A stretch of 64,000 nt of DNA. It comes from Enterovibrio baiacu (GTDB taxonomy: Bacteria > Pseudomonadota > Gammaproteobacteria > Enterobacterales > Vibrionaceae). Below, one piece after another: positions 53,950 through 59,173 of the stretch. The notes beneath the pieces were generated by a model. That model saw nothing but the letters and a program-made list of their open reading frames with translations. It did no database searches and was not told the DNA's origin. Every line of letters starts with the position of its first letter. Position 1 is the first letter of the stretch. A program made the position numbers and the translations under genes. The DNA is taken from the NCBI RefSeq assembly GCF_004120195.1, contig NZ_SCHN01000012.1:1-64000 (forward strand). Reading direction: 5' to 3'.

Positions 53950-55827
53950 TTACGCGACGTTAGATTTTGCAATCAAACGATCTTGGTCATAAGTGAATTC
54001 AAGTGCCACTTCATCACACGCATGCAAGCGAGGACAACGGTCACAGTCTTTCATGACCTTCTCTGGCAACAAAGATTTCGACGTTGGAATGAAGCCCATT
54101 CGCATGAAGAACTCAGGCACACGGGTTAACACAAACACCTTCTTAATGGCCATGTTGCCGGCTTTTTTCAGCAAGTGTTCGACAATCGCACTGCCCTGTC
54201 CTTGATGCTGCCAACCGGCTTCCACACCCAGTGAGCGCACTTCAGCAAGACCGGAGTCGTACACATACAAAGAGGCACAACCCGTAACTTCCCCTTGGTG
54301 CTCTGCAACCGCAAACGAACCAATATCACGCACCAATTCGTTGCGTTCACGCGGCAGGTTTTCACCCAAGCCCGCCCAGTACACCACCATGCCTTCAATG
54401 GCATCCAAGTCGGTCAAGCGTGCGCCACGCACTTTCACGCGTGGAGAGTAACGTTTTTCCAAACGCTTCTCGGCCTGACTGATGGCAAATTCCACCTGAT
54501 TCGGCGCAACACCACCAAGGGCACAACGCTTATCAAGGCAGGATTCAATGGTCAGAATCGGGTAAACATCTTCGTCAATCACCGAAGAGAATTGCTTCAT
54601 CTCTTCCAGTGACAGCTCTTCCAATGCACAGCCTTTTTCGATTGCTGCGACAACAGCAACGCCCACAATATGGTGAGCTTCTCGGAAAGGAATGCCCTTG
54701 GCTACCAAGTAGTCCGCAAGCTCTGTGGCGTTTGAGTAGCCCTGCATTGCCGCCTCAAGCGTACGATCTTTGTTGATTTTGATGCCGTCAAAACACAGCG
54801 CCGCCATTTCCAAGCAGTCATGCCATGTGTCTAACGCGTCAAACAGGCCTTCTTTGTCTTCTTGCATGTCTTTGTTGTAGGCAAGCGGCAAGGCTTTCAC
54901 TGTCATCATCATCGCAGACATTGCACCGTAAACACGGCCAGTCTTACCACGAATCAATTCAAGCGCATCGGGGTTTTTCTTCTGTGGCATCAAGGAGGAA
55001 CCCGACGTCACTGTGTCTGCCAACTCAACGAAGTTTGATTCGCCCGAGTTATAGAAGATCAGATCTTCTGCCATGCGTGACAAGTGGAGCATGGACACAG
55101 ATGCCACTGACATCAGCTCCATCACATGGTCACGGTCAGAGACCGAATCTAAGCTGTTGCGGGTCGCACGACGGAAGCCCAAGCTGTGCGCGAGTGCTTC
55201 ACGATCAATAGGGTATGCCGTTCCCGCCAATGCACCAGAGCCCAATGGGCAGGTATCAAGACGGTTAAGTGCATCACTCAAACGCGAGTAGTCACGTTCA
55301 AGCATTTCCACATAGGCCAAACACCAATGTGCAAATGTCACAGGCTGCGCACGTTGTAAGTGGGTGTAACCCGGCAACACCGTGTTTTGGTGCACAGACG
55401 CAACCTGCACCATTTGGTTTTGTAGCTTATCAAGAGAAAGGAGAAGCTGTTGACCCTGCTGGCGACACCACAGTTTCAGATCTGTCGCGACCTGATCGTT
55501 ACGCGAACGTCCGGTGTGAAGCTTCTTCCCTAAATCGCCTACGCGTGCGATCAGTTGTTGCTCCACCCAACTATGGATATCTTCTGCATCAGAGCGAAGA
55601 ATCTGCTCTGGATCTTCCATCACGGCCAACTTTAGCTCGTTCAATGCGAGCTCAAGACGCTGCTGCTCTACCTCGGTGAGAACACCGACCGAGCGCAGCG
55701 CTTTAGACCAAGCGATAGAGCCAATGATGTCTTGCTCCGCGAGGCGATAGTCAAAACGCAACGAATCGTTGAATTGCTTAAATCGAATGTCGGCTGCTTG
55801 ACTAAACCTTCCGCCCCATAACGCCAT
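53950..55827 (-). CDS. argH: Bifunctional argininosuccinate lyase / N-acetylglutamate synthase
   Basis: 625 residues. Residues 1-460 are argininosuccinate lyase (signature [29 protein letters not shown]). Residues about 465-625 are a GNAT acetyltransferase domain ([33 protein letters not shown]), the short N-acetylglutamate synthase known as argH(A) in Vibrio and Moritella. One protein thus makes the first precursor and catalyses the last step of arginine synthesis. Last gene of argCBGH. Confidence 0.95.
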
Positions 55828-55859
55828 ATTTCCGTCTCCTTACCCTTATTGCTTCCTGT

Positions 55860-57071
55860 CTATTTTTGTTTTTTTTCGTTTAGCGCGCGAATGCGGCTCG
55901 ACAGCGAGTAAAGACGGATAAAGCCACCAGCATGGCTGTGGTCGTAAACATCATCTTCACCGAAGGTAGCAAACTCTTCCGAATACAAGCTGTTAAGCGA
56001 ACGCTTCTGCACTACTGTAGCTTGTCCTTTGTACAGTTTCACCACAACTTCACCCGTGACGGACTCAGCCAGAGAATCTGCGGCAGCTAGAATAGATTTG
56101 CAAAGCGGCGTAAACCAGCGGCCATCATAAATGAGATGCGACGCTTTTAGGCCTAATTCTTCACGGAATTCGAAACAATCTTTGTCCAGTACCAATTGTT
56201 CAACACCACGAAGCGCTTCCATCATGATGGTGCCGCCCGGGGTTTCATAACAACCGCGAGACTTCATGCCAACCAGACGGTTTTCAACGATGTCGATACG
56301 GCCAACACCGTGACGCGCACCTTTTTCGTTCAAGGTCGTCAGTACTTGGTACGGCGACATTTTCTCGCCATCAACCGCAACCACTTCACCTTTCTCTACC
56401 AACAGAGACACGGTTTCAGCTTGGTCTGGTGCTTGCTCTGGATCGACCGTCCACACCCAGCAAAGCTCGTTTGGTTGGTTCCACGTGTCTTCAAGTACGC
56501 CGCCTTCGGTTGAGATGTGCCATGCGTTTGCATCACGGCTGTAGATTTTCTCAAGGCTTGCAGTACAAGGAATGTTGCGCTCTGCAAGGTAATCCAGCAG
56601 CGCTTCACGGCTACGTAGATCCCACTCACGCCAAGGCGCAACCACTTTAAGTTGTGGTGCCAGTGCCGCGAATGCACTTTCAAAACGTACTTGGTCGTTA
56701 CCTTTACCCGTACAACCGTGACACAGTGCATCAGCACCCACTTCCAATGCACACTCAACTTGCGCCTTCGCGATGATTGGACGCGCCATTGACGTACCTA
56801 GCAGGTACTTACCTTCGTAAACAGCACCGGTCTTTAGGCTTGGGTAGATGTACTCCGCCACCATTTCTTCTTTCAGGTCAGCGATGTAACACGCTGATGC
56901 ACCTGATGCCAACGCCTTCTCTTCAATGCCAACCAGCTCTTCTTCGCCCTGGCCTACATCGGCAACGAACGCGATAACTTCACAGTCATAGTTTTCTTTA
57001 AGCCATGGAATGATTGCCGACGTATCAAGACCGCCAGAATATGCGAGTACGACTTTGTTAATGTTGCTCAT
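55860..57071 (-). CDS. argG: Argininosuccinate synthase
   Basis: ATP-dependent ligase joining citrulline and aspartate, 403 residues. N-terminal P-loop [28 protein letters not shown] and [20 protein letters not shown]. 32 bases before argH(A). Confidence 0.97.
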
Positions 57072-57132
57072 GTTACTTCTCCTTGTGTGCCGCTCTGACG
57101 GTCAGTACAGGCGGTCAACTTCAGTAATGTGT

Positions 57133-57912
57133 TTAAAGGGTAAAACGGGTGCCAATGCTGTTGCCGCTGAATAACTCGGCCAGCTTATCGGGGTAACGCC
57201 AGCTCGCCACTTCAATCGGGCGACCCAGTGCTTCAGCAGCTTCAAACGCCGCTTTTACCTTCACGATCATGCCATCAGTAATGACACCGCTTTCAATCAG
57301 TTCGTTTGCCAACGCCACATCAAGCGTTGGCATCAATTTACCTTTGCCGTTCAAAACGCCACTGACGTCTGACAGCAAGACCAATTCCGCATCTAACGCA
57401 GCCGCTACCGCTACCGCAGCTTGGTCAGCGTTCACGTTCATCAGTTGTCCGTTATCATCCAAGCCAATTGAGCTAATGATAGGCACACAACCTGTCGCTA
57501 AAATCGCCTGCAATAATGCAGAGTTTCCTGGTGCTGCTTTACCCACACACCCCAATTCAGGATCCAGCTGTGTGATTTGACAAAGGCCACCATCTGCAAG
57601 GCTCAAGCCCGCCGCATTAATGCCGCTTCTTACCGCTTGGCCCTGTAGCAATTTATTTGCTGTTCCCGCAAGTGCACCGGCAACCACGTTAATCTGATCG
57701 CTTGGCGTGACACGCAGGCCTTGTTTCTTTTCGACTTTCAGGTTGAGGCCATTCATGAGCTCATCAACCAAGTAGCCACCACCATGAACCACCACCAAAT
57801 CACGGTGCGCTGATTCTTTATATTCACTGATGGCATTGAACAGTTTCTCGAGCGTTTCTTCACAAGAAAGCGCTGCACCGCCTAGCTTTACTACCAAAGG
57901 ACGTAAACTCAT
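57133..57912 (-). CDS. argB: Acetylglutamate kinase
   Basis: Amino acid kinase family, 259 residues, phosphorylates N-acetylglutamate. VKLGGAAL and [11 protein letters not shown] at the N-terminus, NVNADQAA in the nucleotide domain. The start [12 protein letters not shown] has AGGAGAG upstream and leaves 10 bases to the argC stop. The short form without an N-terminal helix is usually not arginine-inhibited; that is family knowledge. Confidence 0.96.
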
Positions 57913-57922
57913 CACCACTCTC

Positions 57923-58930
57923 CTAAACGATCGCCGTAAGAGGCGCAAAGCCGAAACGAATGTTTATGCACTGCATCGCTTGGCTTGCAGCACCTTTTAA
58001 TAGATTGTCGATCGCCGAGGTAAGCACCACGTGCTGCCCTTTCACAGACCAGCCAATGTCGCAAAAGCCTGTGTTTTGAACAGATTGCAGTTTTGCACTT
58101 TGGCCGGCACCGAGTGGACGAACCAAAGGTTGGTCAGCATACGCTCCCTCAAGTGCTTGTGTTACCGCACTTTCATCCACGCCATCAGCCAGCTTTGCCG
58201 TGATGGTCGCTAGGATACCGCGTTTGAAGTTGCCAAGGTGCGGCGTAAAGATAACTTCTCGACCAAGATGCGCAGAAATCTCAGGTTGGTGACGGTGTGT
58301 GAACACGCCATACGCATGCAGACTCACTTCGCAAAAGCTGTTGGTCATTGACGCTTTGCGGCCTGCACCAGATACCCCACTCACTGCACTAATGACGGGC
58401 CACTGAACTTCATCAAGTAACCCTGCATCGATAAGCGGTTTTAATGCCAATTGAGAAGCCGTTGGATAGCACCCCGGTACTGCAATCAAATCTGCCGATG
58501 CAATGGCATCTGCATTCCATTCAGCAAGGCCGTAAGCCGCTTGATCGAGCAACTCTGGGAAGGTGTGGGCAAAGCCATAATAAGTGGTATAGAAATCATC
58601 GGACTTCACACGGAATGCACCAGACAGGTCGAAGACTTTACAACCCTGCGCGAGGAACGAGGCCGCCAGATCATGGCTCACTTCGTGGGCGGTCGCTAAC
58701 AACACGACGTCCGCATTTTTTGCAATAGTATCAACGTCTACCAAAGGCTGTAGCGGCAAATCAATCAGCCCTTTCAACTGACCATGGAGATCGCTGATAG
58801 GTGTGTTGGCATCGGCACTGTTCTTCGATACGTATAACCCAGCTAACTCAAGCTCTGGGTGTAGATGGACCATCTTGGTCAGCTCGGCACCGGTATAGCC
58901 ACTAGCGCCGACAATCACAGTCTTTAACAT
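57923..58930 (-). CDS. argC: N-acetyl-gamma-glutamyl-phosphate reductase
   Basis: 335 residues. NADP-binding [14 protein letters not shown], catalytic Cys in [13 protein letters not shown] and a His in HHRHQPEI-like THRHQPEIS. The start [14 protein letters not shown] matches the family; the frame is open 25 codons further upstream through the leader region but that extension is not conserved-looking. First structural gene of the operon, behind an ArgR operator and a putative leader peptide. Confidence 0.96.
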
Positions 58931-58971
58931 GGAAAATCCGTTTATATAATCGGTAGAGAATTGTTGTGTTT

Positions 58972-59007
58972 CAGCTCGCTCAGCTGCGGGAGGGGTGCGC
59001 GTCACCC
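58972..59007 (-). promoter_or_regulatory. Hairpins in the argC leader mRNA
   Basis: Between the leader-peptide stop and argC two hairpins are visible: GGGTG-ACGCG-CACCC (complement of 58993-59007) and CAGCT-GAGCG-AGCTG (complement of 58972-58986). A third overlaps the end of the leader frame (CGTTA-ATT-TAACG). CACCCCTCCCGC lies between them. No T-tract follows, so a Rho-dependent or translational mechanism is more likely than an intrinsic terminator. Confidence 0.5.
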
Positions 59008-59016
59008 GGCGTTAAA

Positions 59017-59070
59017 TTAACGTCGGCGTCGTCGTAGAAGAAGAGGGGTCTGTGAGTAATAATCCATCAT
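59017..59070 (-). CDS. Putative arginine-rich leader peptide of argCBGH(A)
   Basis: 17 residues, MMDYYSQTPLLLRRRRR, ending in five consecutive arginine codons (CGA CGA CGC CGA CGT) immediately before TAA. AAAAGG lies 9 bases before the first ATG. It is the first reading frame after the argC promoter and ArgR operator, 86 bases before the argC start, and hairpins follow it. This is the layout of an amino-acid attenuator in which arginyl-tRNA supply would set ribosome position. Function is inferred from architecture only. Confidence 0.65.
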   Translation of the reverse strand: MMDYYSQTPLLLRRRRR

Positions 59071-59106
59071 CGTATCGTACCTTTTCACTGCATCCGTGAG
59101 CGAATT

Positions 59107-59145
59107 TTTTAATTGTTATTCATTTAATATGAATTTATATGTGCT
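59107..59145. promoter_or_regulatory. ArgR operator (two ARG boxes)
   Basis: On the minus strand AGCACATATAAATTCATA, 3 bases, then AATGAATAACAATTAAAA. Against the ARG box TGAAT-N4-ATTCA the first matches 7 of 10 and the second 9 of 10 fixed positions, and the 3-bp spacing is canonical. It adjoins the -10 element of the argC promoter, the right place for ArgR repression. Confidence 0.75.
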
Positions 59146-59173
59146 TTTTATCGTGATAAGTGACTAATGTCAA
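59145..59173 (-). promoter_or_regulatory. Putative sigma70 promoter of argCBGH(A)
   Basis: TTGACA (complement of 59168-59173), 17 bases, TAAAAA (complement of 59145-59150). The ARG boxes begin at its -10 and cover the expected start of transcription. Confidence 0.65.

Follow-up and report, generated by a model that had tools for sequence, protein, structure and literature searches.

A leader peptide gene with tandem CGA codons before argC in Enterovibrio and its relatives: a probable arginyl-tRNA-sensing attenuator

Textbook accounts of gammaproteobacteria ascribe the control of arginine synthesis to ArgR and feedback inhibition. Does the argC operon of Enterovibrio baiacu carry, in addition, a leader peptide that would read the supply of arginyl-tRNA? 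An earlier note on this DNA had seen a 17-codon frame ending in arginine codons between an ArgR-type promoter and argC, and had proposed an arginine attenuator. We followed this up in the window, that is, the whole 64,000-nucleotide stretch of contig NZ_SCHN01000012.1 (assembly GCF_004120195.1), and in the argC-upstream regions of other genomes. On this comparison we consider an undescribed arginyl-tRNA-sensing leader-peptide attenuator of argCBGH(A) to be probable.

The leader frame and where it occurs

The features of the locus are collected in Table 1. The promoter, the ARG-box-like sites, the AAAAGG and the 17-codon frame with its terminal arginine codons were all found at the positions first described, and the three hairpins claimed after the leader are present as short inverted repeats. 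The promoter layout is also visible in the compared Enterovibrio/Grimontia loci; a promoter consensus scan did not report TTGACA-N17-TAAAAA at this site. ARG-box-like matches to the consensus include a third, overlapping one at 59122-59139, but each box is weak alone because 12 matches of the same stringency occur in the window against 7.5 expected. The frame ends at 59017 in CGA CGA CGC CGA CGT TAA. Its second ATG (59067) is the aligned start in the other Enterovibrio/Grimontia loci, with the exception of the near-identical E. norvegicus DSM 15893, and the window peptide may therefore be 16 residues long rather than 17. That strain is the nearest named relative, its argC being 97% identical among the best 80 of 84 related loci. 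By Pfam domains, a divergent PEP carboxylase gene lies upstream of the leader, and argH, at the far end of the operon, carries a fused GNAT acetyltransferase domain (argH(A), 53950-55827); argC itself begins at 58930.

Table 1. Features of the argC leader region and operon in the Enterovibrio baiacu window
Feature	Position	Strand	Remarks
Sigma-70-like promoter TTGACA-N17-TAAAAA	59145-59173	-	sole match in window, 0.02 expected
Two ARG-box-like sites, 3 bp apart	59107-59124; 59128-59145	-	2 mismatches; 3 mismatches
AAAAGG, Shine-Dalgarno-like	59080-59085	-	9 nt 5' of first ATG
Leader peptide gene MMDYYSQTPLLLRRRRR, 17 codons	59017-59070	-	alternative start 59067
Conserved dicodon CGA-CGA	59029-59034	-	in frame in 105/106 regions with the hexamer, 13.5 expected
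Helix 1:2, CCGACGTT (59019-59026) with AACGCCGG (59006-59013)	59006-59026	-	spans last Arg codons and stop
Hairpin 2:3, GGGTG (59003-59007) with CACCC (58993-58997)	58993-59007	-	excludes helix 1:2
Third hairpin, CAGCT-GAGCG-AGCTG	58982-58986 with 58972-58976	-	no T tract after
C-rich block CCCCTCCC, candidate Rho contact	58988-58995	-	sequence
Spacer from leader stop to argC, 86 nt	58931-59016	-	C 27, G 17
Operon argC, argB, argG, argH(A)	53950-58930	-	ORFs and Pfam domains

The comparison set comprised 255 argC-upstream regions, 217 of them distinct once 38 near-identical ones had been dropped; L274-L281 (fragments or distant matches) were left out of the 217 and L304-L331 were counted apart. 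Not every argC-bearing genome contributed upstream DNA (292/296, 130/148 and 144/185 did so in three sets), sampling was uneven, and family and genus labels were entered by hand from tables, with some assignments resting on tool labels. A strict rule asked for an ATG-started frame 6-30 codons long that has CGACGA in frame within its final six codons and stops 55-160 nt ahead of argC; such frames were found in 97 of the 217 distinct regions against 0.1 expected from dinucleotide shuffles. When any two adjacent arginine codons were accepted, the count was again 97, against 4.3 expected, and the pair was CGA-CGA in 97/97. A looser rule (an ATG frame of up to 45 codons with the dicodon anywhere) yielded leader frames in 105 of the 217 regions. 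Indeed, 105 of the 106 regions that contain the hexamer CGACGA have it within such a frame, where 13.5 are expected if the flanks are shuffled; among 24 clade representatives picked from the leader-bearing loci, the hexamer is in frame in 24 against 2.9 expected. In the one region that lacks such a frame, L073 of Aeromonas salmonicida, the sequence is otherwise the same but the start codon reads ATA, and this leader, its arginine codons still kept, is possibly decaying.

When 61 family genomes were scanned independently for a Photobacterium-type leader, 16 places were found, 10 of them directly before argC. Within the E. baiacu genome, a run of four CGN codons and a stop is nothing rare, occurring at 18 places and thus as often as the reversed pattern (18), and a search for the pattern SD-ATG-CGACGACG gave five matches at four places, one of which is the argC leader; the others are known as matched letters alone. 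Shine-Dalgarno-like matches of at least four bases accompany 58 of the 105 leaders, against 38.9 in shuffles. Taken by comparison of sequences, the short frame before argC is a real conserved leader peptide gene, not a chance frame, and the frame tests favour its translation. Gene order was ruled out as an explanation of the leader, which is found with either ppc or argE upstream (39/40 and 22/39, respectively, among 80 named loci).

First noticed in one genome, the frame and its arginine codons are kept in the close relatives (14 of 17 distinct regions of the Enterovibrio/Grimontia group) and, as the counts above show, well beyond them. Of the three misses in this group, L017 is a 43%-identity fragment, and L015 and L016 are loci whose argC is divergent. 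Leaders were found in 30/30 distinct regions of Photobacterium, 2/2 of Veronia and 6/6 of the Salinivibrio-like group g9, with one each in g3, g4, g8 and g11; they also occur in Moritella (7/7), Motilimonas (4/4), the Aeromonas family (14/17, plus 1/4 Aeromonadaceae MAGs/Tolumonas) and the families f17 (6/7), f6 (8/9), f7 (6/9) and f16 (2/2). The single case in f11 (1/2) is possibly chance. No leader was found in the 42 distinct regions of Vibrio sensu stricto, the 13 of typical Aliivibrio, the families f12 (0/7), f19 (0/7), f10 (0/6), f27 (0/5), f21 (0/5) and f3 (0/4), the single or paired regions of g2, f5, f9, f15, f26 and one other group, or 28 regions from outside the order. In Vibrio sensu stricto, TTG-started frames (e.g. 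MHNIFTSTIDRKTIRR) were rejected as leaders since they overlap the promoter itself. An Aliivibrio frame, MCNVQVTLNGIFLQ, was rejected since it holds no arginine codon and its ATG is ATA in L261. Three Aliivibrio loci (L053, L056 and L261) carry an inverted repeat, AAGGAAA...TTTTCCTT, in the last 120 nt before argC, with no arginine frame.

Helices and output after the leader

As a whole, the 220-nt leader of the window folds no better than its shuffles (z 0.49), and neither Motilimonas (z +0.85) nor f6 (z -0.55) shows unusual folding downstream of the leader stop. Helix 1:2 of the window, which contains one A-C mismatch, is predicted by RNAalifold on 13 Enterovibrio/Grimontia sequences that show little variation; in this group a helix between CCGACGTT and AACGTTGG is predicted to compete with a GGG..CCC pairing, and the third hairpin is paired in 13/13 sequences with zero variation.

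The Photobacterium leaders were tested with 28 distinct sequences of 29 aligned, two of these being the g8 and g3 relatives. Here ACCAAGCG, which makes up codons 2-4 of the leader, pairs with CGCTTGGT, located a few nucleotides past the stop, with 92.4% of cells paired against at most 39.7% when the arms are slid by 1-3 columns. The compensatory hairpin changes that had been named as support for the attenuator appear in part: both partners have changed in 15 cells, where shuffles give 3.2, but neither the pairs with changes in both partners (2, shuffles 1.8) nor the pair types (5, shuffles 5.9) are more numerous than in shuffles. Hairpin 2:3, GGTGC...GCRCC, starts in the GG of the CGCTTGGT segment; its arms were found in 29/30 loci, and all 5/5 pairs form in 20/20 distinct sequences, where 3.3 are expected and 500 shuffles reached a maximum of 9. 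Because both use the same GG, helices 1:2 and 2:3 are mutually exclusive. The alignment thus supports two competing helices with covariation in Photobacterium, and the CGACGA hexamer lies outside both of them.

In both designs, that of Photobacterium and that of Enterovibrio/Grimontia, a ribosome held at CGA-CGA would block the first helix. When the ribosome was modelled as a mask on the RNA, the accessibility of the C-rich block showed no consistent difference between a ribosome at CGA and one at the stop, with opposite changes between clades, so we infer the switch from the anatomy.

The output step may differ between clades. A hairpin followed by a T tract before argC was found in 0/14 Enterovibrio/Grimontia and 1/30 Photobacterium loci, and terminator-like sites number 7 across all 105 leaders against 5.0 shuffled; the earlier remark that no T tract follows the window's leader thus holds for all 14 leaders of its clade. 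In f17, the CGACGA codons form the 5' arm of a hairpin, CGACGA...TCGTCG, with the T-rich tract GTCTTTT/TCTTTTC immediately after it, in 4/6 leaders (L202, L203, L247 and L250), such that a terminator-like hairpin is built from the putative regulatory codons themselves. We take this as the strongest hint of an action on transcription. Blocks resembling the C-rich block of the window occur in Veronia, Aeromonas, the Salinivibrio-like g9 and roughly half of the Photobacterium loci. More C than G is found in 79% of the 105 spacers between leader and argC, the window's own spacer standing at the 91st percentile of 86-nt windows. Over the last 90 nt, the share of regions with more C than G is 78% where a leader is present and 21% where it is absent, a contrast that may partly reflect base composition because the leaderless set is largely Vibrio and Aliivibrio. 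The C-richness of the spacers fits Rho.

The lack of a terminator in the window's clade would also suit control beyond transcription, with translation of the leader altering argC initiation or mRNA stability in place of termination. The leader of speF offers a parallel, its orf34 acting through RNase G, access to the ribosome binding site and Rho (PMC6386406). The consensus folds, computed on segments that stop short of the argC ribosome binding site, show no helix covering it, however, and single-sequence folds show none that is shared; the f17 hairpin likewise speaks for termination. We therefore regard translational coupling or mRNA-decay control as an unlikely account of the leader. For the attenuator reading, Rho or translational control is what we infer as the output in the window's clade.

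According to this attenuator reading, the operon transcript would start at the ArgR-controlled promoter and first encode a throw-away peptide of 12-20 residues (longer in f7). When arginyl-tRNA is scarce, the ribosome would stall at the tandem CGA, which would be read only, and badly, by the inosine tRNA-Arg. Thus stalled, it would block helix 1:2 over the leader coding sequence, so that hairpin 2:3 could form after the stop and RNA polymerase would continue into argC, argB, argG and argH(A). With arginine in good supply, the ribosome would complete the leader and depart, helix 1:2 would re-form, the C-rich segment would be exposed, and Rho would stop transcription. In f17, a stalled ribosome would presumably hold open the hairpin of which the CGA codons form the 5' arm.

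The CGA-CGA pair

Outside the arginine codons the leader peptides diverge, as in M[DE]KFSTPLLQRRRRR, MNQA......SLRRR, MPLA...ALSARRR, MNRFSWFRRDSI, MKTNFSHNSRRRSHL, MFCHLICNRR.. and MYLIAIQFTVTDPKVNYLRR. In Enterovibrio/Grimontia the ratio pN/pS, 0.55, is below that of the shifted frames; it is 0.57 in Motilimonas, 0.76 in Photobacterium, 0.88 in the Salinivibrio-like group and, over few sites, 2.67 in Aeromonas; constraint on the peptide appears weak. In f7, three loci (L210, L211 and L253) have longer leader frames about 120-230 nt before argC and share F[CTS]SPLAGY before the arginine pair and GTAGC[AG]CACTTTTTACCTTTGT after it, the SPLAGY motif being shared in these three f7 loci only. Across the leaders compared, what stays constant is the dicodon CGA-CGA, not how long the arginine run is. 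The earlier note had named synonymous changes in that run as support; the pair shows none across the leaders. In the 35 long open reading frames of the window, by comparison, CGA is a minor codon (79 of 798 arginine codons, 9.9%) and CGA-CGA makes up 1 of 50 Arg-Arg pairs.

A fixed codon pair in an unconserved peptide is also what a constitutive pausing leader would display, in which CGA-CGA is slow at all arginine levels through poor inosine-adenine decoding and serves transcription-translation coupling or mRNA protection, with ArgR alone sensing arginine. In a Salmonella his-leader assay CGA is a poorly read codon, and de-attenuation was high for Arg-Arg pairs that include it (PMC4046918). 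Against such a role, the leader is attached to an arginine operon and further arginine codons follow the pair in many clades (CGC in 55, CGA in 12 and CGT in 1 of the 105 leaders, the rest having His, Asp, Cys, stop or others at this place), and we judge constitutive pausing to be quite improbable. More improbable still is that CGACGA is kept for its role in the RNA or DNA, with an incidental frame: the pair lacks synonymous change, the hexamer is a hairpin arm in f17, and the following arginine codons and stop pair downstream in Enterovibrio/Grimontia, but the hexamer lies in frame far more often than expected, both over all regions and among clade representatives, the tested Photobacterium helices do not contain it, and leaders differ in length by whole codons.

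The codon choice is consistent with an arginyl-tRNA attenuator, for which the slowness of CGA-containing Arg-Arg pairs in the his leader also speaks. CGU, CGC and CGA are read by one shared inosine tRNA (PMC3711424), inosine 34 has been confirmed in tRNA-Arg(ACG) of V. cholerae (PMC12588516), and attenuation theory expects regulatory codons to be chosen for sensitivity (PMC1183508). More tentatively, and with doubt outweighing confidence, we suggest that the attenuator is ancient, predating much of the order's diversification and having disappeared from Vibrio sensu stricto, Aliivibrio and others; that, keyed to CGA-CGA, it reports decoding by inosine 34 of tRNA-Arg(ICG), that is, charging together with TadA modification; and that its output has been exchanged between an intrinsic terminator in f17 and a Rho-type step in Vibrionaceae.

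Comparison with known systems

The leaders hisL, trpL, leuL, thrL and pheL combine codons for the product amino acid with competing helices before the first gene and an intrinsic terminator at the end. Like them, the argC leader is a short frame between promoter and first gene, as its position and the conservation of the frame attest, and carries adjacent codons for the product of its operon (CGA-CGA in 105/217 regions, before an arginine operon). Mutually exclusive helices are likewise found in Photobacterium; in the window's clade, helix 1:2 is a prediction from sequences of little variation. Unlike those leaders, it has no intrinsic terminator in the window's clade (0/14), and for this reason we do not class it as a his/trp-type member. 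Nor do we class it with the arrest peptides TnaC and SpeFL, because the peptide is not conserved: outside the arginine codons the sequences diverge. In Rfam, the window gave no match at gathering score, and the two weak matches in the region (E 0.35 and 0.4) are unrelated.

No description of an argC leader peptide was found in the open-licence literature searched, and the list of E. coli leader peptides in the cited part of PMC7815308 (hisL, trpL, leuL, thrL, pheL) contains no arginine leader. An attenuator of this kind, known for histidine or tryptophan, is thus probably undescribed for arginine synthesis. The closest relative in arginine sensing is orf34/SpeFL of Salmonella speF, also a short leader frame with two consecutive arginine codons, by which arginine is sensed; there, the ribosome stalls when arginine runs short and the RNA downstream folds differently, with Rho involved (PMC6386406), a sequence of events that for argC is proposed only. 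The two differ in that speF encodes ornithine decarboxylase and SpeFL has 34 residues with a conserved domain (PMC6386406), whereas the leader described here precedes argC, encodes an unconserved peptide and has CGA-CGA as its fixed feature. In arginine synthesis itself, tandem arginine codons (CGG) in E. coli argA have been proposed as an arginyl-tRNA sensor, but that proposal is a model prediction within a coding region, does not concern a leader peptide and entails positive feedback (PMC10325894).

If the attenuator reading is right, several families carry a second, tRNA-based arginine sensor before argC, the question of why arginine lacks attenuation becomes directly testable, and the leader offers a natural case of a slow codon pair fixed by selection for regulation. 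It would stand beside repression by ArgR, whose ARG-box-like sites the argC promoter also carries: ArgR senses free arginine at the DNA, whereas the argC leader would sense charged tRNA on the RNA.
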